32,352 nt of DNA from a virus: positions 1-32,352 of the IMG/VR virus record IMGVR_UViG_3300031787_004645; one strand, 5' to 3'. A program made the translations under genes and the position numbers. The notes under the pieces were generated by a model. The model was given only the letters and a program-made list of their open reading frames with translations. It was not told the DNA's origin and made no database searches. Shown one piece after another: positions 3,384-12,932 of the stretch (positions are counted from its first letter, which is position 1; the number at the start of each line of letters is the position of its first letter).

Positions 3384-3408
3384 TACCATAGTATAATTGG
3401 AGAGAAAT

Positions 3409-4443
3409 ATGAGCCTCAAAGAACGACTTATTAAAAATAGCACTATTGATTTTACTTCAACTCTTACAGAGTCTAAAGTTTATAATAAAAACGATATGAT
3501 TCCTACTCCAGTTCCAGGGATCAATATTGCATTGGGTGGAAGTATTGATGGTGGTATAACACCTGGTCTACTGGTACTTGCTGCACCATCAAAGCACTTT
3601 AAGACTGCTTTTAGCCTTCTCATGGCTGCTTCGTTTCTTAAGAAGTATCCTGATGGTATTATTCTATTCTATGATTCTGAGTTTGGTACTCCACAATCTT
3701 ACTTCACTTCATTTGGTGTTCCTCTAGAATCAGTTGTACATACACCTATTACTGATATTGAACAACTTAAGTTTGATATCATGCAACAGCTAAACGAACT
3801 TAAACGTGAAGATAAAGTAATGATTATTGTCGATTCTGTTGGTAATCTTGCTTCAAAGAAAGAAGTTGAGGATGCTCTGAAAGGTTCTTCTGCGGCAGAT
3901 ATGTCCAGGGCTAAGCAATTAAAAAGTCTCTTTAGGATGATTACTCCTCATCTCACGCTAAAAGATATTCCTATGGTAGTCGTGAATCACATCTATATGA
4001 CTCAAGAGATGTATTCAAAGCCAATTGTATCTGGTGGAACTGGAATTTATTATTCCGCAAGCAATATTTGGATCATTGGGCGTCAGCAGGATAAGGATGA
4101 CAAGGAACTAAAGGGATATCACTTTGTCATTAATGTAGAAAAGTCCCGACATGTAAAAGAAAAATCCAAGATTCCAATCACGGTAAATTTTGATTCTGGC
4201 ATTAATAAATGGTCAGGATTCCTTGACTTAGCTCTGGAAGCAGGTTATATTACAAAACCAAAGCAAGGTTGGTATGCAACTCTGGATAAAGAAACTGGTG
4301 AACTAGGTCCAAATAAACGTGCAGCAGATATCATTGACAATAATGACTTCTGGAAGACTCTTCTGGAAACAACAGATTTTGCTGATTGGATTAAAAACAA
4401 GTTTAGTTTGTCCCACGGTGAAATGATAGAAGAAGATGAATAG
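3409..4443 (+). CDS. uvsX: UvsX, RecA-like recombinase
   Basis: A strand-exchange protein of 344 residues that in T4 forms filaments on single-stranded DNA and drives recombination-dependent replication and repair. The Walker A loop APSKHFKTA is at residues 59-67, in the same unusual form as T4 UvsX (SK.FK rather than the classical GKT). Walker B VMIIVD is at 137-142. VVVNHIYM further on matches the RecA-fold motif 4 region. The C-terminus is acidic (MIEEDE). I chose ATG 3409, with GGAG seven bases upstream, over an upstream TTG at 3397, because the TTG would fall on the promoter and ribosome site. It has its own promoter and overlaps the next gene by eight bases. Confidence 0.96.
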   Translation: MSLKERLIKNSTIDFTSTLTESKVYNKNDMIPTPVPGINIALGGSIDGGITPGLLVLAAPSKHFKTAFSLLMAASFLKKYPDGIILFYDSEFGTPQSYFTSFGVPLESVVHTPITDIEQLKFDIMQQLNELKREDKVMIIVDSVGNLASKKEVEDALKGSSAADMSRAKQLKSLFRMITPHLTLKDIPMVVVNHIYMTQEMYSKPIVSGGTGIYYSASNIWIIGRQQDKDDKELKGYHFVINVEKSRHVKEKSKIPITVNFDSGINKWSGFLDLALEAGYITKPKQGWYATLDKETGELGPNKRAADIIDNNDFWKTLLETTDFADWIKNKFSLSHGEMIEEDE

Positions 4444-4693
4444 CAATACTTTAATAGAAACTTTCTATAGTAAAGATGGGAGAAAACAATCTCCCATCTA
4501 TCAGACTGATACTACATTTTACATTGAGTTTTATCACGATGATGTGCTAATCAGTGCTGTAGAACTTAAAGAACATAATATTCATTATGCTCAATCTATT
4601 GCAGAAAACTTTTGTAATGGTATACTTAAACTAGATCCATGGAGGGCTAATGAGTCTATCAAATCTCATCTTCACAAATCTTGTAACCAATGA
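4436..4693 (+). CDS. Small conserved phage protein between uvsX and helicase
   Basis: An 85-residue protein with no motif I recognise. The N-terminal half reads like a small beta-rich fold (TDTTFYIEFYHDD); the rest is amphipathic helix. It overlaps uvsX by eight bases and the helicase gene by 44 bases, which argues for translational coupling within the replication operon. The helicase ribosome site GGAGG (about 4640-4644) lies inside its coding region. A perfect stem-loop (4474-4499) lies about 38 bases after its ATG. Function unknown; a role in loading or regulating replication proteins is only a guess from location. Confidence 0.7.
   Translation: MNSNTLIETFYSKDGRKQSPIYQTDTTFYIEFYHDDVLISAVELKEHNIHYAQSIAENFCNGILKLDPWRANESIKSHLHKSCNQ
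4474..4499 (+). other. Perfect 9-bp stem-loop inside coding sequence
   Basis: AGATGGGAG (4474-4482) pairs without mismatch with CTCCCATCT (4491-4499) around an eight-base loop. No T-run follows, so it is not an ordinary terminator. It lies about 38 bases downstream of the start codon at 4436. Confidence 0.6.
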
Positions 4694-6050
4694 AGAGTAT
4701 GGTAGAAAGGTAATCCCATATCTAAAAGAAGAATATTTTGAGTCTTATTCCGACCGAATCATTTATAAAACTATCAATGCCTATGTAGAGAAATATAACA
4801 AGTTTCCTACAGCAAAAGCTATTGAACTTGATCTAGATTCTCTCAGTCTAGAGGATCGAGTCTATAAGGACTGTAAAGAAATTGTATCTACTATTTCTGA
4901 TAAAGATGATAGAGATCTAGAGTGGCTACTTGACAAGACCGAAAAGTTTTGTCAGGAACGTGCAGTCTATAATGCTATCATGTCAAGCATTCAGATCTTG
5001 GATAATAAAGATCCAAAAAACAACAAAGGATCCATCCCAAAGATCCTACAGGATGCTCTTGGTGTAAGTTTTGATACTCATATCGGACATGATTTCTTTG
5101 ATGATTCAGATCCTCGTTTTGAGTACTATCATCGTACTGAAGATCGAATCCCATTCAGACTTGAATATCTGAATAGAATCACTAAGGGTGGTCTACCAAA
5201 AAAGACACTCAATGTCATTCTTGCAGGACCACACGTTGGTAAATCACTATTCATGTGCTCTACTGCTGCTGGTAATCTTCTGGATGGAAAGAATGTTCTG
5301 TATATTACCATGGAAATGGCTGAGGAAGAGATTGCTCGCCGTATTGATGCTAATATTCTAGACATTCCGATTGAAGAACTCGACACTATCTCAAAGGAAC
5401 TATTTGATAAAAAGATGGCACGTGCCAAGGGTAAGACCTCTGGTAAACTTATTATCAAAGAATATCCTACTTCAACTGCTGGGTCTGCCAACTTCCGCCA
5501 TTTGCTTCAAGAACTAAAGCTAAAAAAGAACTTTATTCCAGATATCATCTATATTGACTATCTGAATATTTGTTCTAGCTCTAGATTGAAGATGGGTTCT
5601 AATGTCAATAGTTATACCTACGTAAAGGCTATTGCTGAGGAACTTCGTGGTCTGGCAGTAGAGTTTGAAGTTCCTATCGTTTCTGCTACTCAGACGACTC
5701 GATCTGGTTTTGGAAACTCTGACGTTGATATCACTGATACATCAGAATCTTTCGCACTTCCAGCAACTGTTGACTTCATGCTTGCTCTAGTAAGCTCCGA
5801 TGAACTTGAAGCACTAGAACAAATTATGGCTAAACAGTTGAAGAACCGATATACCAATCTTCATAAGTGTAAACGCTTTGTGATTGGTGTTGACAAGATC
5901 AAGATGAAGTTGTATGATGTAGAGGAATCTGCACAAGATCTAGTGGATGACTCACCTGTAATGGACAAAGGAGATTTTGGTGATCGTGAAAAAGCTATAA
6001 ATAAAAAGAAGTCTAAGTTTTCTCTCAACGAGTTTGAAGGATTTAAATAA
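4650..6050 (+). CDS. 41: Replicative DNA helicase, DnaB-like, T4 gp41
   Basis: A hexameric 5'-3' helicase of 466 residues that unwinds the replication fork together with the primase. Walker A GPHVGKS is at residues 193-199. Walker B PDIIYIDY is at about 298-304, followed by the RecA-fold segment with SATQTTR. The N-terminal 150 residues are the helical DnaB-type N-domain. The C-terminus is Lys- and acid-rich. Length is close to T4 gp41 (475 residues). A very strong ribosome site, GGAGG, lies a few bases before ATG 4650. The matching primase (gp61-like) is encoded 11 kb downstream behind its own promoter, so the primosome partners are not co-transcribed from one site. Confidence 0.96.
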   Translation: MSLSNLIFTNLVTNEEYGRKVIPYLKEEYFESYSDRIIYKTINAYVEKYNKFPTAKAIELDLDSLSLEDRVYKDCKEIVSTISDKDDRDLEWLLDKTEKFCQERAVYNAIMSSIQILDNKDPKNNKGSIPKILQDALGVSFDTHIGHDFFDDSDPRFEYYHRTEDRIPFRLEYLNRITKGGLPKKTLNVILAGPHVGKSLFMCSTAAGNLLDGKNVLYITMEMAEEEIARRIDANILDIPIEELDTISKELFDKKMARAKGKTSGKLIIKEYPTSTAGSANFRHLLQELKLKKNFIPDIIYIDYLNICSSSRLKMGSNVNSYTYVKAIAEELRGLAVEFEVPIVSATQTTRSGFGNSDVDITDTSESFALPATVDFMLALVSSDELEALEQIMAKQLKNRYTNLHKCKRFVIGVDKIKMKLYDVEESAQDLVDDSPVMDKGDFGDREKAINKKKSKFSLNEFEGFK

Positions 6051-6256: not shown

Positions 6257-6287
6257 GAGCAGATCGAAAGGTCTGCTCTTTTTTTTT
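6257..6287 (+). terminator. Intrinsic terminator closing the replication block
   Basis: GAGCAGATC (6257-6265) pairs with GGTCTGCTC (6270-6278), nine pairs including one G-T, around a GAAA tetraloop. Nine Ts follow (6279-6287). This is a textbook rho-independent terminator. It separates early/replication transcription from the late promoter six bases further on. Confidence 0.93.
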
Positions 6288-6292
6288 AGTTT

Positions 6293-6300
6293 TATAAATA
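6293..6300 (+). promoter_or_regulatory. T4-type late promoter opening the virion block
   Basis: TATAAATA is a perfect match to the T4 late -10 element used by gp55-sigma polymerase. Expected start is near 6306, then AAGGA at 6311-6315 and the ATG at 6324. It lies immediately behind the terminator, as expected at an early/late boundary. Confidence 0.88.
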
Positions 6301-6323: not shown

Positions 6324-6947
6324 ATGAAAAGATTTTTAGAGTTTCTAGAAGAAGGCAAGCGTAATGTACTTCATGCCTTCGACATGGACGAAACACTATT
6401 AGCACATGATTCTAAGCATCTTAAGATCCATATTAGGGATAATAATAATCATCTAATAAGAAGTCTTACTAACCAAGAGTTTAATAGATATAAACTGAAG
6501 CCAGGTGAGCACTATGACTTTAAAGATTTCAGATCAGCAAAGGTCCTTGGTCGTTCAGCTCATCCAATACATACAATGATTAATAAATTGAATAATCTCA
6601 AAAAAAGAGGTTTTAAAACTGAAATAGTGACTGCCAGATCTGATTTGGATGATAAACAACAAGTCAGAAAGCACCTTATGAAGCACAATATCAATATTGA
6701 TACTACTCATCTAAGAAGAGCAGGAAACGTCGAAGGTAGTTCTACTGGTGATAGAAAACGAAAGTTAATTTCTGATTTGATTAGTAAACATGGATATAAG
6801 GAAGTTCATCTTTATGATGATGATATTGGTAATCATAGACATTTTGCAAAACTAAAACAAGAACATCCAGGAGTAAGACTTGTGTCTCATATTGTAAAGC
6901 ACAATGAAAATACTGGTAAAACAGCAATAAAAACAGTGAGGCACTAA
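6324..6947 (+). CDS. HAD-superfamily phosphatase with capsid-targeting-like N-terminus
   Basis: A 207-residue HAD-like hydrolase. Motif I is FDMDET (nucleophile D20, general acid D22). TARSD at 103-107 fits motif II, basic residues near 145-147 fit motif III, and YDDDIGN at 164-170 fits motif IV. The expected chemistry is phosphate-ester hydrolysis through an aspartyl-phosphate. The substrate is unknown; a nucleotide or nucleic-acid 3' phosphate is possible given the neighbours. The N-terminus MKRFLEFLEEG matches the register of the T4 internal-protein capsid-targeting sequence (aromatic 4, F7, L8, E10, then G) and ends at a likely prohead-protease site after E10. First gene behind the late promoter. 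Codon use is more AT-rich than the helicase gene, suggesting separate acquisition. Confidence 0.85.
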   Translation: MKRFLEFLEEGKRNVLHAFDMDETLLAHDSKHLKIHIRDNNNHLIRSLTNQEFNRYKLKPGEHYDFKDFRSAKVLGRSAHPIHTMINKLNNLKKRGFKTEIVTARSDLDDKQQVRKHLMKHNINIDTTHLRRAGNVEGSSTGDRKRKLISDLISKHGYKEVHLYDDDIGNHRHFAKLKQEHPGVRLVSHIVKHNENTGKTAIKTVRH

Positions 6948-6948
6948 G

Positions 6949-7683
6949 ATGTCAGCAAAATCCGATGCTTATGAAAAGACTGTCGCTGATAATATCAACA
7001 GCGTTCCTGGTGTAAAAGCCATTAGGCCTCCTGGTGATACAGGGCTTTCAGATGTACTCATAACTCAATATAATAATAAATCTGCTCGTACTTGGGTTGA
7101 AGTTAAAATGAGTCATACTGATAATCTATCAAACCCTCGTGTTTTTTATTCTGATGGTAAATGGCAAACCACATATAAAACACCAGCAGCCAAAGCAGCT
7201 ATAGATATATTAAATTCTTCAAATCAAGCTCAAAAGTTTATTCAAGATCTTGCTAAATTCAGTGGTATCCCAGTTAGATCTATAAAAGTACCTACAACTC
7301 AATCTGGTTTAAAAGAAGAAGGTGCAGTGCCTTTAATGGTTATGAAGGCATTTTTTAATCAACCAGGTATTAATAGATATATTGCAAATCAAGAAAACTA
7401 CGATCTAGGAAAACTTGTTACAGAACATTATACAATAGGTAAAAAGGAACCTGCACATTATATGCAAGCAGGCGATGATTTTTATATGATAAGTTCTGCT
7501 AATCCACTAAAACTTTCAAATAAAATACCTCTATTAAAAGGTATAGGTGATTTTAAAGTTAGGGTATCAACAAGATCAAACTTTTATGAAGTTCAGGCCG
7601 AAATAAAAATATCTAAGATGCCAAATAGTAGTTTTTCAATGGCGCCTGGTACTAATAAAAATAATCCTTTTTTGAAGAAATAA
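6949..7683 (+). CDS. Probable PD-(D/E)XK nuclease-like protein
   Basis: A 244-residue protein whose N-terminal 60 residues fit the restriction-endonuclease-like core: E9 in an opening helix, D35 in GLSDVLI and E51-V-K53 in TWVEVKMS. This D-(15)-ExK spacing is the usual metal-binding arrangement of PD-(D/E)XK nucleases. The C-terminal two thirds are unfamiliar and could bind DNA or partners. It starts one base after the upstream phosphatase stop and ends three bases before the nucleotidyltransferase, so the three form one late operon. It lacks the capsid-targeting-like N-terminus of its two neighbours. Substrate is unknown. Nuclease assignment is inference from the motif alone. Confidence 0.7.
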   Translation: MSAKSDAYEKTVADNINSVPGVKAIRPPGDTGLSDVLITQYNNKSARTWVEVKMSHTDNLSNPRVFYSDGKWQTTYKTPAAKAAIDILNSSNQAQKFIQDLAKFSGIPVRSIKVPTTQSGLKEEGAVPLMVMKAFFNQPGINRYIANQENYDLGKLVTEHYTIGKKEPAHYMQAGDDFYMISSANPLKLSNKIPLLKGIGDFKVRVSTRSNFYEVQAEIKISKMPNSSFSMAPGTNKNNPFLKK

Positions 7684-7686
7684 GAT

Positions 7687-9975
7687 ATGATACCATTTTC
7701 AAAGTTTCTTATTGAATCACTAGATGTTGACAAGTTAAAACATTTAGAACATGCGGAAGATCACATCATCCATGGTGGAGAAGAAGGGTTAGTCCATGCT
7801 GCTGACAATCTCAATGATCTTCATTCTTTTCTTACTGGTGGTAAGTCTAAATCAAAAGTAACAACTAAGTATGATGGTTCTCCTTCTGTAGCTTTCGGGA
7901 TTAATCCTGAGAATGGTAAGTTCTTTGTGGGTTCAAAATCTGTATTCAACGTGAATCCAAAGATCAACTACACAGAGGAAGATATTGACAGAAACCACGG
8001 TCATGCTCCAGGTTTAGCTCAAAAGCTTAAAGTTGCACTAAAGCATCTACCCAAAGTGATGCCAAAGGATGCTAAAGGAGCACCATCTGGTGTCTATCAA
8101 GGTGATTTCCTTTATGATAAGAATGACCTTGAAGATGAAGATGGTAAGTACAAGTTTGCACCAAATACTATTACCTATGCTGCGCCAAAAGACTCTAGTA
8201 TGGGTCGAAAAGTAGGTGCATCACAGATGGGGTTTGTGATTCATACCAAATATAAAGGCAAGAATCTGGCTGATATGAAAGCGGGCTTTGACGTAGATCA
8301 TTCAAAGTTTAAACAAGACCCAGACGTAAATCTAGTCAATCCAGAGATTAATGATACTTCTAAATCAGTCTATTCACCAGTCCAACAAGCAGAATATAAT
8401 AAACACCTTGAAGCCGCAACTGAAAACTATAGAAACACTTCTTCTGATACACTCAAGAATTTAGGTAAGCATGATGCTTATATCAAACCCTACATAAATC
8501 AAACAGTCCGAGATGGAACAACACCATCAGTCGATGATTACAAATCATCACTAGAGGATAAAAGGGATAAAGAAGTTGCAAAAGTCAAGACCGAAGCTGC
8601 AAAACAAAAGAAGGCTTCTGTTTATGATGAGCTCATTACTGACCTCAATAACAACAAGCAGGACTACGGCAGAGCGTTTGCGATACATCATCATCTACAG
8701 AAAGCTAAAGATGTATTGGTTTCAGCTCTAGGTAATCCTACAGAGTTTGAACACACTGTCGGTGGTAAGAAAGTAAAACCTGAAGGGTTTGTTTCAATCC
8801 GTAACGGTAGACCTACCAAGCTAGTTGATAGAGCAGAGTTTAGTCGCTTGAACTTTGCCAATAATAGAGGTCGTGGTGAAAGTGCACCAACAGAACCAGA
8901 TGCTACTAAACCAGATGAACGTGATACCAAGAATCCACACGTACTAGCATTTGGTCGAATGAATCCACCTACAATAGGTCACGGTGCTCTAGTAGACAAA
9001 GTAAAAGAACTAGCTACTGAAAACAAAGCAAAGCATACAGTTGTATTGTCACACTCACAAGATCCTGAAAAGAATCCACTATCGGCTGAACAAAAGATCA
9101 AACATGCCAAGAGATTCTTTCCAGGTGCAAATATTCAAGCTGCAACTGATGAAGCACCTACATTTATTCATCAAGCAAAGAAACTACATCAACAAGGTGT
9201 AGATCATCTTATCATGGTCGGTGGATCAGATAGAGTTGATGAATATAAAAAGATTCTTGATAAGTATAACGGACCAGGTAAAGACTTCAACTTCAAACGA
9301 ATTGATGTAGTCTCTGCTGGTGAACGTGATCCAGACGCCGAGGGTGTTTCCGGTATGTCTGCATCAAAGATGCGTGCCCACGCTATGAATAGAAACTATA
9401 CTGAATTTAAAAAAGGAATACCTCAACATGTCCATCCTGAACACGCTAAAGAACTTTATAATGAAGTACGTAAAGCCATGCACATCGAAATCGGTCCAGA
9501 CACCTCAGGAATTGCTCTTGGTAAATACGCCAAGCGAGATGACGAAGTCGGTCACAGAGCCAGAGCAGAGCAAAAAAGAAGAGAACAAGCCAAGCTTGCA
9601 AGTAAAAGTAGTTCATCTAGGGTCAGTGGTAAAAGACCTGGAACAACCACCAGCGCCACCACCAGTAGTGCAAGTCCCAGTAGTAGAAGAACCAGTGCAA
9701 GCGCCAGTGGTAGCACCAGCACCAAAGCCAAAAAGACAATCAAAGAAGAAAGAAACTTTAAAGGTTTCAGTTCCTTTACCCAAGAAAAAGGTATCAAAGA
9801 ACAAACTACGACAGCAGACATAAGAGGTCTAGGTAATATTTCTGGTAACCCAGCTGGTGATATATCAAACTATGCTAGTGATAATATTGCAACAGCAGAT
9901 ACACTTAATGATGTTCTGAAAAAATTCATAAACACTTGGCATAGTAAATATCATTTATCAAAGGTTAAAAAATAA
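7687..9975 (+). CDS. Bifunctional ligase-like plus NMNAT/cytidylyltransferase-like protein
   Basis: A 762-residue fusion. Residues 1-11 (MIPFSKFLIES) match a T4-like capsid-targeting sequence with a cleavage site after E10. Residues about 55-300 resemble a covalent nucleotidyltransferase of the DNA/RNA ligase fold: motif I TKYDGSP (K61 as the nucleotidylated lysine), FVGSKS at 80-85, then QGDFLYD and GFVIHTKYKG in the expected order. Residues 418-600 are an HxGH-type nucleotidyltransferase: FGRMNPPTIGH (T429 to H432), VGGSDRVDEY and a C-terminal SASKMR signature. Residues 600-690 are a Ser/Thr/Arg low-complexity tail. Similar fusions occur in T4-like marine phages with no established role. 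Possible roles are nucleic-acid end joining, RNA capping or NAD metabolism; none is shown here. The stop overlaps the next ATG (TAATG). Confidence 0.85.
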   Translation: MIPFSKFLIESLDVDKLKHLEHAEDHIIHGGEEGLVHAADNLNDLHSFLTGGKSKSKVTTKYDGSPSVAFGINPENGKFFVGSKSVFNVNPKINYTEEDIDRNHGHAPGLAQKLKVALKHLPKVMPKDAKGAPSGVYQGDFLYDKNDLEDEDGKYKFAPNTITYAAPKDSSMGRKVGASQMGFVIHTKYKGKNLADMKAGFDVDHSKFKQDPDVNLVNPEINDTSKSVYSPVQQAEYNKHLEAATENYRNTSSDTLKNLGKHDAYIKPYINQTVRDGTTPSVDDYKSSLEDKRDKEVAKVKTEAAKQKKASVYDELITDLNNNKQDYGRAFAIHHHLQKAKDVLVSALGNPTEFEHTVGGKKVKPEGFVSIRNGRPTKLVDRAEFSRLNFANNRGRGESAPTEPDATKPDERDTKNPHVLAFGRMNPPTIGHGALVDKVKELATENKAKHTVVLSHSQDPEKNPLSAEQKIKHAKRFFPGANIQAATDEAPTFIHQAKKLHQQGVDHLIMVGGSDRVDEYKKILDKYNGPGKDFNFKRIDVVSAGERDPDAEGVSGMSASKMRAHAMNRNYTEFKKGIPQHVHPEHAKELYNEVRKAMHIEIGPDTSGIALGKYAKRDDEVGHRARAEQKRREQAKLASKSSSSRVSGKRPGTTTSATTSSASPSSRRTSASASGSTSTKAKKTIKEERNFKGFSSFTQEKGIKEQTTTADIRGLGNISGNPAGDISNYASDNIATADTLNDVLKKFINTWHSKYHLSKVKK
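9600..9735 (+). repeat. Low-complexity CCAGT/CCACC-rich segment
   Basis: An imperfect repeat of short CCAGT, CCACC and CAAG units encodes a Ser/Thr/Ala-rich linker in the main frame. A second frame (9428-9823) stays open through it and would read as Pro/Val-rich. Such slippage-prone DNA often varies in length between related phages. Confidence 0.6.
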
Positions 9976-11295: not shown

Positions 11296-11303
11296 TATAA
11301 ATA
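11296..11303 (+). promoter_or_regulatory. T4-type late promoter
   Basis: A perfect TATAAATA eight bases after the stop of the structural gene. Expected start is near 11309, giving a 16-base leader with TTGGAG before the ATG at 11325. Confidence 0.87.
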
Positions 11304-11324
11304 TAAAAAAAATTGGAGATTTCT

Positions 11325-11807
11325 ATGTTAGACGAAAAAAGAGGACTATGGGATAATATCCATGCCAAGCGCAAGAGAATTGCCGCTGGTTCTGGTGAAC
11401 GTATGCGTAAGCCTGGTTCAAAAGGTGCACCTACTGCAGACGCACTTAAATCAGCAAAAGAAGAACGATCTGTTTTAAATACAGTAAAACGTGTTGTAAA
11501 AGAAGCACTTTATGAGTGTAATGGGAATTGTACATGTGGTAAACAACCACCAGTTACAGAGGCAGAATATCAAGGTCGTTCCGTTCCTCTTGGTAAGCCA
11601 ATGAAAGGTGATGTAAAGAAGTCTAAAGTATATGTAAAGAATGAAAAGGGTAATGTTGTCAAAGTAAACTTTGGTGACAAAAATCTTTCCATAAAGAAAA
11701 ATAATCCAGCTCGTAAACGTTCTTATTGCGCTAGATCATCTGGACAAGGTAACCTAAACAAAAGAACAAGTGCTAACTATTGGTCCAGAAAAGCTTGGAA
11801 TTGTTAA
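11325..11807 (+). CDS. Small basic late protein with C-terminal RKRSYCARSSG motif
   Basis: A 160-residue Lys/Arg-rich protein. The N-terminal half is helical and very basic (HAKRKRIAAGSGERMRK). A short Cys cluster, CNGNCTCG, sits in the middle. The C-terminal 60 residues (VYVKNEKGNVVKVNFGDKN followed by ARKRSYCARSSG and SANYWSRKAWNC) are a small domain that recurs in T4-like marine phages and is often tied to the head. I chose ATG 11325 because TTGGAG lies seven bases upstream; a TTG at 11313 would place the start on the ribosome site. It is transcribed from its own late promoter, so a virion or assembly role is likely, function unknown. Confidence 0.78.
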   Translation: MLDEKRGLWDNIHAKRKRIAAGSGERMRKPGSKGAPTADALKSAKEERSVLNTVKRVVKEALYECNGNCTCGKQPPVTEAEYQGRSVPLGKPMKGDVKKSKVYVKNEKGNVVKVNFGDKNLSIKKNNPARKRSYCARSSGQGNLNKRTSANYWSRKAWNC

Positions 11808-11808
11808 A

Positions 11809-12498
11809 ATGAGAAAACTTAGAATTTTGATATGCCAACAATGTAATAATCAATATGAAACACGACTTAAAACAATATGCTGCAGTCGTGATTGTTCCAA
11901 TAAATTACAAGGGAATTTGAGAAAAACTCAAATAAATCCCGAAACTGGATTGTCAAAATCAAAAGAAATAGCATTAAAATCATCTATTACGATGAAGGAA
12001 AATTCTTGGTACGGAAGTGAAAATCATTTAAAATGTTTAAAGCATACTCCTGACGTTTTAGAAAAAAGAGGTAAAAGTATAAGCAAGGCTCATCTAAAAA
12101 TAGATGAAAATACTGGTTTGACTAAAGCTGCTTTAGCAACTAAAAAAGCAATGAAAACAAAAGTAGATAAAGGCATTTATATTGATCCAATATACAAAGA
12201 TGCATATGAATTATATCGTGATAAAGTAAGACTGTTAACTGAAAAACAAGATCTTTCTAAATTAGATGGTTATAAGGAAAGAGCAAGAGCAGGTGTAATT
12301 AACGGGAAACATTTAGATCATATTTTTTCTATTAAAGCAGGATATACTCTTAATGTTGATCCTGTAATTATGTCCTCTTTATGTAATTTACGTTTTATTT
12401 CTTATCAACAAAATGTCTCAAAAAAAGATAAATGTGATATTGAATTAAATGAGTTATTAAAATTATATAAAGATTTAACTGAAAGTAAAACAATATGA
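11809..12498 (+). CDS. HNH homing endonuclease with N-terminal zinc finger
   Basis: A 229-residue, AT-rich gene inserted between two late genes. The N-terminus has a CxxC...CCxRxC zinc-binding pattern (C9, C12, C24/C25, C29), probably for target recognition. The catalytic part near the C-terminus reads KHLDHIFSIKAGY (H168, D170, H171), then NLRFISYQQNVSKK with N193 and N202, fitting the HNH/beta-beta-alpha-metal fold. The start at 11809 comes one base after the previous stop and has only a weak purine stretch upstream, so translation is probably low. Its last four bases overlap the ATG of the Dps gene. AT-rich codons such as AAA, ATA and TTA set it apart from its neighbours, typical of selfish mobile genes in T4-like phages. 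Confidence 0.85.
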   Translation: MRKLRILICQQCNNQYETRLKTICCSRDCSNKLQGNLRKTQINPETGLSKSKEIALKSSITMKENSWYGSENHLKCLKHTPDVLEKRGKSISKAHLKIDENTGLTKAALATKKAMKTKVDKGIYIDPIYKDAYELYRDKVRLLTEKQDLSKLDGYKERARAGVINGKHLDHIFSIKAGYTLNVDPVIMSSLCNLRFISYQQNVSKKDKCDIELNELLKLYKDLTESKTI

Positions 12499-12932
12499 CA
12501 GAACTAGTAGACCAAATGAAAGTTGTGCTTGCTAGCACTTTTTCACTTTATCTAAAAGCACATGGCTTTCATTGGAATATTGAAGGACCAGATTTTGTTC
12601 AGTATCACACTTATCTAGGTGAGTTTTATACTGAAGTATGGGGTGCGGTTGATACCATTGCGGAACATATCAGAATCCTAAATGCATATGCACCAGGCAG
12701 TCTTTCCAGATTTTCACAACTATCAGTAGTAGATGATCAGATCAATGTACCCTCTCCATTGAAAATGATTAAAGAACTAGAACTAGATAATGCTAGACTA
12801 AAGACTGAATTGACAAAGGCCTATAAACTAGCAGAGGATGCTGGTGAGTTAGGCCTTTCAAATTTTCTACAAGACAGAATTGATATTCATGCCAAGCACG
12901 GTTGGTTCCTCAAATCAATAGGTAAATCATGA
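12495..12932 (+). CDS. Dps/ferritin-like protein
   Basis: A 145-residue protein matching the Dps family: KAHGFHWNIEGPDF followed by a helix containing VDTIAEHIR. Against the known Dps ferroxidase pattern, H26, H38, D53 and E57 are present at the right spacing, while the position of the usual third acid (H+4) is Gly42 with Glu43 next to it. Dps proteins form 12-subunit shells that bind DNA, oxidise ferrous iron and remove peroxide. This copy lacks the usual Lys-rich N-terminal DNA-binding tail. It sits between a homing endonuclease and putative head proteins in the late block, so it could protect packaged or newly made DNA. Overlaps both neighbours by four bases. Confidence 0.88.
   Translation: MTELVDQMKVVLASTFSLYLKAHGFHWNIEGPDFVQYHTYLGEFYTEVWGAVDTIAEHIRILNAYAPGSLSRFSQLSVVDDQINVPSPLKMIKELELDNARLKTELTKAYKLAEDAGELGLSNFLQDRIDIHAKHGWFLKSIGKS

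Follow-up and report, generated by a model that had tools for sequence, protein, structure and literature searches.

Putative T4-type capsid-targeting sequences on a HAD phosphatase and a ligase-like nucleotidyltransferase fusion of an uncultured phage

Two predicted enzymes encoded in a DNA fragment of an uncultured T4-like phage, a HAD-superfamily phosphatase and a DUF6267-nucleotidyltransferase fusion, begin with N termini that are very likely T4-type capsid-targeting sequences. The fragment, here called the window, is 32 kb long (32,352 nucleotides) and carries no gp21, gp22, or gp23 of its own. In the explanation that we favor with high confidence, both genes would be transcribed late in infection from a promoter at 6293, and residues F4 and F7 of the tags would dock the two proteins on the prohead scaffold core. 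A gp21-type protease encoded outside this fragment would cut after L-x-E10, freeing the enzymes inside the head, from which they would enter the next host along with the DNA.

The HAD gene starts at 6324 and encodes 207 amino acids, and the fusion gene starts at 7687 and encodes 762 amino acids; each start is the first ATG of its open frame. The tags MKRFLEFLEE (6324 to 6353) and MIPFSKFLIE (7687 to 7716) lie on the plus strand, as do all features mapped below between 6257 and 9975. Experiments in T4 showed that the first 10 residues are enough, with positions 4 and 7 acting in targeting and positions 8 and 10 in processing (PMC9026906). Both window tags have an aromatic residue at position 4 and a phenylalanine at position 7 within these ten residues, in a shared register of F4, F7, L8, and E10 followed by G11 (HAD) or S11 (fusion). 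The preliminary description held that both starts match every position of the T4 tag; its coordinates and register stand, as do F4, F7, E10, and the small residue at 11, but position 8 is leucine in both proteins where T4 has isoleucine. L8 still fits the gp21 cleavage motif, because that motif is given as L/I-x-E (review PMC9026906), and it ends at residue 10 before a small residue in each case (L8-E-E10^G and L8-I-E10^S). Cleavage is predicted before G11 in the HAD protein and before S11 in the fusion. The strict motif occurs at 2 of 49 gene starts in the window, against 0.0048 expected from position-specific residue frequencies over the same 49 starts (Poisson P ~1e-5).

To place these tags in a wider context, we scanned 145 related loci together with the window, where the strict motif is found at 145 of 2236 gene starts and at 2 of 13336 internal start-like codons. 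The gene-start rate is inflated because two families served as search queries; at least nine further families also carry the motif. Overall, the tag is present on more than 20 unrelated protein families, including a SAM lyase, a kinase, DUF6321, and the T4 internal proteins. Among 28 HAD homologues F4 is invariant and E10 is at least 90% conserved, and in the fusion family M1 is invariant and E10 likewise at least 90% conserved; one HAD clade (L025, L044) keeps F..F and has lost E10. Such strong conservation within two families, in what would be a short amphipathic helix, could also reflect an intrinsic N-terminal helix for folding or dimerization whose likeness to T4 is due to chance. We regard this as very improbable, since the same motif recurs on unrelated families and the tag is kept at 30 to 50% identity and followed by linkers of variable length that separate it from the domain. 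Further, AlphaFold models residues 1 to 17 of the fusion with pLDDT below 50, so the tag is disordered and outside the fold in the model. Cyanophage DUF6267 proteins keep the domain and lack the tag entirely. The cultured phage Melnitz carries DUF6267 with a tag, and HTVC008M is more divergent. Fused ligase-nucleotidyltransferases carry one tag and split versions usually two (L071, L029, L058, L069, L099), the split nucleotidyltransferase usually having gained a copy of its own. Chance or an intrinsic helix was thus rejected on the internal-codon control, portability, and disorder. As for the processing machinery, a gp21 protease is present in all five searched relatives of at least 128 kb, and the gp23 propeptides of relatives carry L-x-E sites.

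We next combined published virion mass spectrometry of relatives with N termini read from their sequences. All four checked cyanophage nucleotidyltransferases reported in purified virions carry the tag: S-SM1 GC190 (MKKFSAFLNEA), S-SCSM1_91 (MKSFLQFLKEA), S-CREM2 gp154 (MKNFSSFLTEA), and S-SZBM1_140 (MRFRQFIIEA). These virion proteins, annotated as NMNAT or cytidylyltransferase (T4-GC190), are homologues of the C-terminal domain of the window fusion, but in all four phages they are encoded by a separate gene, and in S-SM1 and S-SZBM1 the partner DUF6267 is untagged, unlike the tagged window fusion. In S-CREM2, all three strict-motif genes encode virion proteins, against 47 of 217 other genes (Fisher p = 0.011). 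The S-PM2 homologue, an untagged fusion, was not detected in published virion proteomics. In S-SCSM1, one strict-motif protein (106 amino acids, 44215) is not among the reported virion proteins, and this phage alone gives no significant association between tag and virion, and none with the relaxed motif. Detection of the tagged enzymes could reflect carry-over of abundant cell proteins, with the tag serving another role; the authors of the virion studies raised CsCl carry-over as a possibility, and peptide counts of the nucleotidyltransferases are low where seen (2 to 3; S-CREM2 and S-SZBM1). We consider carry-over improbable: the tagged nucleotidyltransferase was caught in four independent preparations, the DUF6267 next to it in S-SZBM1, which has no tag, is missing from the virion protein table, and the S-CREM2 enrichment argues against it. 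The tag offers an explanation for the recurrent cytidylyltransferase/NMNAT in cyanophage virions, a repeated puzzle of cyanophage papers, whose consulted passages do not describe a tag on this protein. Literature searches found no publication on "capsid targeting sequence" that concerns cyanophages by title, no published N terminus of any cyanophage cargo, and no published virion detection of the HAD family.

Consistent with late expression, the gp41 transcription unit upstream ends in an intrinsic terminator, recognized by eye (6257 to 6287; a GAGCAGA/TCTGCTC hairpin and T9), which is directly followed by a T4-type late promoter element, TATAAATA (6293 to 6300), 23 bp ahead of the HAD ATG, in agreement with the preliminary description, which had placed the tagged genes in an operon behind a late promoter. 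Across the related loci, 30% of tagged and 8% of untagged genes have TATAAATA in the 150 bp before them, and none of the replication genes (gp41, polB, and the recombinase-like gene, 3397 to 4443) does. Similarly, the late promoter precedes 27 of 70 HAD genes and 0 of 53 gp41 genes; the pooled test took related loci as independent, and we do not rely on its p-value. The motif thus did not prove equally common in early genes, the outcome that had been named as counting against capsid targeting. T4 IPI to IPIII have no TATAAATA within 200 bp, so the late promoter is supportive rather than defining. Together with the conservation of the tag, its occurrence on unrelated proteins, its disorder beyond the folded domain, and the agreement with virion mass spectrometry of homologues, these promoters uphold the capsid-targeting reading. 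Packaging of tagged enzymes in the head is well supported; packaging in this phage, the cut after E10, injection (by analogy with T4), and enzyme function are inferences.

The predicted mature HAD phosphatase (6354 to 6947; DMDET ... TAR ... K ... DD) matches PF03767 above the family cut-off (8.4e-7) and phrog_415, polynucleotide kinase (5e-9). HAD motifs I to IV are present, with D20, D22, T24, T103, K145, D165, and D166 invariant in 28 homologues. It shares the DxDxT motif and weak profile similarity with the 3'-phosphatase of T4 PseT, but lacks a kinase domain; hhalign against PseT aligned 27 columns, the DxDxT stretch alone. Between the HAD and fusion genes sits an untagged PD-(D/E)XK nuclease-fold protein (6949 to 7683; AlphaFold pLDDT 88), whose structure matches HhaI endonuclease across 173 residues with Z 11.2 and which has both the fold and the D...ExK signature, with D35, E51, and K53 invariant in five homologues.

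The DUF6267 domain of the fusion (7738 to 8865; PF19782, 6e-102) is probably an RNA-ligase-like covalent nucleotidyltransferase. Ligase motifs I (KxDG), IV (EGxV), and V (Lys) were assigned by eye, and K61, D63, G64, E366, G367, and K378 are at least 90% conserved. The 50 structure matches listed are without exception ligases of nucleic acids or of RNA repair; the best reaches Z 8.8 across 185 residues, but its Foldseek E is 0.95, and Foldseek alone gave no significant match. The matches tentatively suggest an RNA-ligase-like identity for DUF6267. Naegleria RNA ligase, TbREL1, and T4 Rnl2 share the KxDG and EG motifs and may share the predicted fold (Z 7.1 to 8.8), whereas DUF6267 has a large helical insertion between the motifs; sequence-profile searches, including hhalign against T4 RnlB, gave no match to RNA ligases, and a literature search found no mention of DUF6267. 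The following domain (8914 to 9489) is an HxGH-type nucleotidyltransferase of the cytidylyl/NMN-adenylyl type (GRMNPPTIGH ... SASKMR; PF01467 over cut-off, 1.7e-5; phrog_3041, 5.6e-66; phrog_395, 4e-45), in which (H/T)xGH and [ST]xx(M)R were read by eye as TIGH and SASKMR. The C-terminal part (9490 to 9975) has no family match in profile searches. The functional labels first given to the two tagged proteins broadly stand. PDB sequence searches with the HAD, DUF6267, and nucleotidyltransferase profiles returned nothing useful, PADLOC gave no defense-family match for the HAD, PD-(D/E)XK, or fusion protein, and GenBank phages include no close DNA relative covering the region.

No catalytic residue varies across the HAD family, and those of DUF6267 are at least 90% conserved, which indicates that activity is under selection. 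This argues against a tag that serves head assembly only, with enzymes that are not injected or stay idle in the next cell. T4 IPIII does take part in assembly, and it binds gp22 (PMC9026906), but T4 Alt and IPI to IPIII act in the infected cell (PMC12373910), and we judge a purely assembly-related role unlikely. The cargo is probably an injected nucleic-acid end-repair or anti-defense set. As its most likely job we tentatively propose that the phosphatase, RNA-ligase-like enzyme, and nucleotidyltransferase arrive preformed and would heal and seal broken nucleic-acid ends against a host nuclease defense at entry. A more specific and still less certain idea is that environmental T4-like phages carry an in-head end-repair set, each polypeptide with a removable tag, that undoes tRNA- or DNA-cutting host defenses before phage gene expression. 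Alternatively, the HxGH domain could be an NMN adenylyltransferase restoring NAD after infection, perhaps against NAD-depleting defense; cyanophage homologues are annotated as NMNAT and NAD synthesis was proposed by the authors (PMC9602691, PMC10665884). However, the ligase fold, PNK-like phosphatase, and PD-ExK nuclease that accompany this domain speak for nucleic acid, and its family match does not go beyond the broad cytidylyl/adenylyl superfamily, so that NAD metabolism seems a rather doubtful role.

Few of the proteins that enter the cell with phage DNA are known beyond T4 and giant phages. A readable 10-residue tag allows sequence searches for candidate injected enzymes, and here names a ligase, a phosphatase, a SAM lyase, a kinase, nucleotidyltransferases, and DUF6321 in uncultured T4-like phages from marine and fresh waters. 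Because the tag is on many unrelated enzymes and on enzymes found in cyanophage particles, environmental T4-like phages probably deliver ready-made enzymes with their DNA.

The closest T4 counterparts of the window tags are those of IPII and IPIII (MKTYQEFIAE^A, cut by gp21), with the same 10-residue length and register, an L/I-x-E site, and a small P1' residue. The T4 internal proteins are small inhibitors of GmrSD restriction enzymes (PMC12373910), whereas the window cargo consists of conserved enzymes, one of 762 amino acids. T4 Alt, an injected ADP-ribosyltransferase, resembles the window proteins as a large enzyme with a gp21-cut N-terminal propeptide and the same terminator-TATAAATA-gene leader; it differs in its shorter propeptide, its match to the relaxed motif only, and its enzyme activity. 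In a T4 control, the relaxed pattern adds Alt and gp24, plus some chance matches, to the three strict matches, IPII, IPIII, and the uncharacterized gp61.1. Alt and gp24 are known gp21 substrates. By the same motif, gp61.1 is predicted to be a further tagged T4 protein, which would start at D11 (DMVAGDSGGNPENISIGTTSGAVVNK) once cut.

According to its virus record, the window is a 32-kb piece of a T4-like phage genome, in which a gp41-type helicase gene (4650-6050) lies upstream of a compact three-gene operon. The helicase unit ends in a hairpin followed by nine T residues (6257-6287), and directly after this terminator stands a late element, TATAAATA (6293-6300), 23 bp before the operon start. 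The genes encode a HAD protein (6324-6947), an unnamed middle protein (6949-7683), and a 762-aa DUF6267-nucleotidyltransferase fusion (7687-9975). The outer two open with M-x2-F-x2-F-L-x-E and then G or S, resembling the T4 capsid-targeting tag, whose ten residues are sufficient; positions 4 and 7 target, positions 8 and 10 direct processing, and the prohead protease gp21 cuts after L/I-x-E (PMC9026906). T-even phages are already known to have capsid targeting sequences and injected proteins, and a review of Black's work suggested that T4-like phages can use the tag to load a variety of proteins (PMC9026906). In the open-licence PMC literature, we found neither an extension of the tag to environmental T4-like phages, nor a link to the recurrent virion cytidylyltransferase, nor a description of a ligase-phosphatase capsid cargo.

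The strict motif occurs twice in the window versus 0.0048 expected (49 starts, position-specific null), and 14 times versus 0.28 in nine genomes or contigs under the same type of null. Across 146 sequences (the window and 145 related loci), it opens 145 of 2236 genes versus 2 of 13336 internal start-like codons, a count inflated by collecting the loci via two query families; this bias is absent for the other tagged families, about 20 distinct proteins. In the T4 genome it marks IPII, IPIII, and gp61.1 only; relaxing it brings in Alt and gp24, which are gp21 substrates, along with some chance matches.

Orthologues of 30-50% identity keep the tag, with linkers of varying length behind it. F4 is invariant in the HAD proteins (n=28) and M1 in the DUF6267 proteins (n=39), with E10 at least 90% conserved in both. 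Residues 1 to 17 of the DUF6267 protein have pLDDT below 50 in the AlphaFold model, and the domain begins at about residue 19. When all tagged proteins are clustered without their tags, the general motif yields 35 clusters. Strict or near-strict tags mark more than 20 of these, among them a DUF6321 protein, an S-AdoMet lyase, an APH-like kinase, and HEAT-repeat and unknown proteins. Nucleotidyltransferase-DUF6267 fusions (the window and related loci L087 and L134) carry one tag each, and stand-alone nucleotidyltransferase genes (L071, L029, L058, L069, L099) usually have their own; one tag per polypeptide, fused or split, fits an address label rather than an intrinsic helix. One HAD clade (L025:3491-4093, L044:3263-3865) keeps F..F(V/I) with glycine for the cleavage glutamate (KRFKEFVGSGT), possibly allowing targeting without cutting. 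In L090 and L096, the HAD domain is fused behind a long upstream protein with a tag-like start (MISFKKFLGGD; MILSFKEFSFK).

Published virion proteomes of cyanophages agree with the tag reading. A cytidylyltransferase/NMNAT was detected in purified virions of S-SM1 (T4-GC190; PMC3037559), S-SCSM1 (ORF91; PMC9602691), S-CREM2 (ORF154; PMC10665884), and S-SZBM1 (S-SZBM1_140; PMC9146016). All four are tagged, with N termini MKKFSAFLNEAERS, MKSFLQFLKEAAES, MKNFSSFLTEADEK, and MRFRQFIIEAVAAA, respectively. The S-PM2 homologue, a DUF6267 fusion starting MATQNKHLEHLED, has no tag and is reported as undetected in S-PM2 virions (PMC3037559). The DUF6267 proteins of S-SZBM1 and S-SM1 are also untagged; the former is absent from the virion protein table (PMC9146016) and the latter from the virion proteins named in the main text (PMC3037559). 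S-CREM2 has three strict-motif genes, for a SAM hydrolase, a kinase, and a cytidylyltransferase, and the products of all three are virion proteins, compared with 47 of the 217 other genes (Fisher p 0.011); with the relaxed motif the count is five of six (p 0.0026). For S-SCSM1, one of two strict-motif proteins is in the virion and the association is not significant. The peptide counts behind these detections are low, and the virion-proteome authors themselves allow for carry-over. Two further virion proteins have displaced tag-like segments: S-SCSM1_93 (L203:41626-41835) ends in RTFKEFLEYIE, as if a C-terminal tag existed, and S-CREM2 gp12 (L202:7704-10313, minus strand), Cas9-like by annotation, has LRFASFMAEA at residues 17-26 behind a short extension; either the tag may start at a CTG or the extension may be tolerated.

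The operon shares its terminator-TATAAATA-gene leader with T4 alt, which encodes an injected enzyme. Among related, nonindependent loci, TATAAATA is found no more than 150 bp upstream of 27/70 HAD, 9/62 DUF6267, and 12/54 other tagged genes, and of 0/53 gp41, 0/31 polB, and 0/42 genes of the 3397-4443 recombinase-like family. Because T4 IPI to IPIII themselves have no TATAAATA at that distance, we regard the late promoter as supportive only. The window is too short to contain gp21 and gp23; a gp21-family protease and gp23 are present in 5/5 searched relatives of at least 128 kb, and several gp23 N termini have L-x-E-A/S sites. With a tag that is conserved, portable, in a late-promoter context, and present on virion-detected homologues, the HAD phosphatase and the fusion are very probably packaged in the head, as the preliminary description proposed; their cleavage is probable, and their injection slightly less so.

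The 6324-6947 product is a HAD phosphatase by its profile matches (PF03767 above cut-off; phrog_415 polynucleotide kinase, 5e-9) and its catalytic residues, all invariant. For DUF6267, the predicted fold and conserved residues (K61-x-D63-G64, E366-G367, K378) support the label ligase-like given in the preliminary description, ligase activity itself being putative. The fold matches RNA ligases, among them that of Naegleria (Z 8.8, 185 residues), TbREL1 (7.7), and T4 Rnl2 (7.1), and all 50 matches listed are nucleic-acid ligases; Foldseek alone gave no significant match. Profile matches identify the C-terminal domain as an HxGH nucleotidyltransferase. The middle protein has a PD-(D/E)XK nuclease fold, matching HhaI with Z 11.2 across 173 residues, and its D35, E51, and K53 are invariant. 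It has no tag, and would either remain behind in the producing cell or be carried along by a partner. For the cargo, we tentatively favor nucleic-acid end repair or another anti-defense act at entry over a part in NAD metabolism, which seems unlikely. T3 SAM-degrading enzymes act in anti-restriction, and by analogy the tagged SAM lyase in S-CREM2 virions would fit such a role at the entry stage.

Elsewhere in the window, a second late element TATAAATA (11296-11303) lies just 5' of an open reading frame (11313-11807) matching phrog_16028 and the DUF6321-like phrog_11180, and 12495-12932 encodes a 145-aa Dps/ferritin-like protein, syntenic and of near-equal length in most related loci. T4 gp61.1 (NC_000866 18966-19130, minus strand; 54 aa, annotated hypothetical) starts with a full capsid-targeting sequence, MKTFKEFIKED, making it a candidate for an additional tagged internal protein of T4; short tagged proteins like it are encoded at L072:10244-10408, L068:9231-9401, and L164:11655-11825 (minus strand). 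The annotated start of the phage C48C1 cytidyltransferase (L197:7688-9031) falls inside the HxGH motif, and an upstream GTG yields a tag, VIKNFSQYLLEEE; the adjoining genes at 5998, 7254, and 9028 are also tagged.
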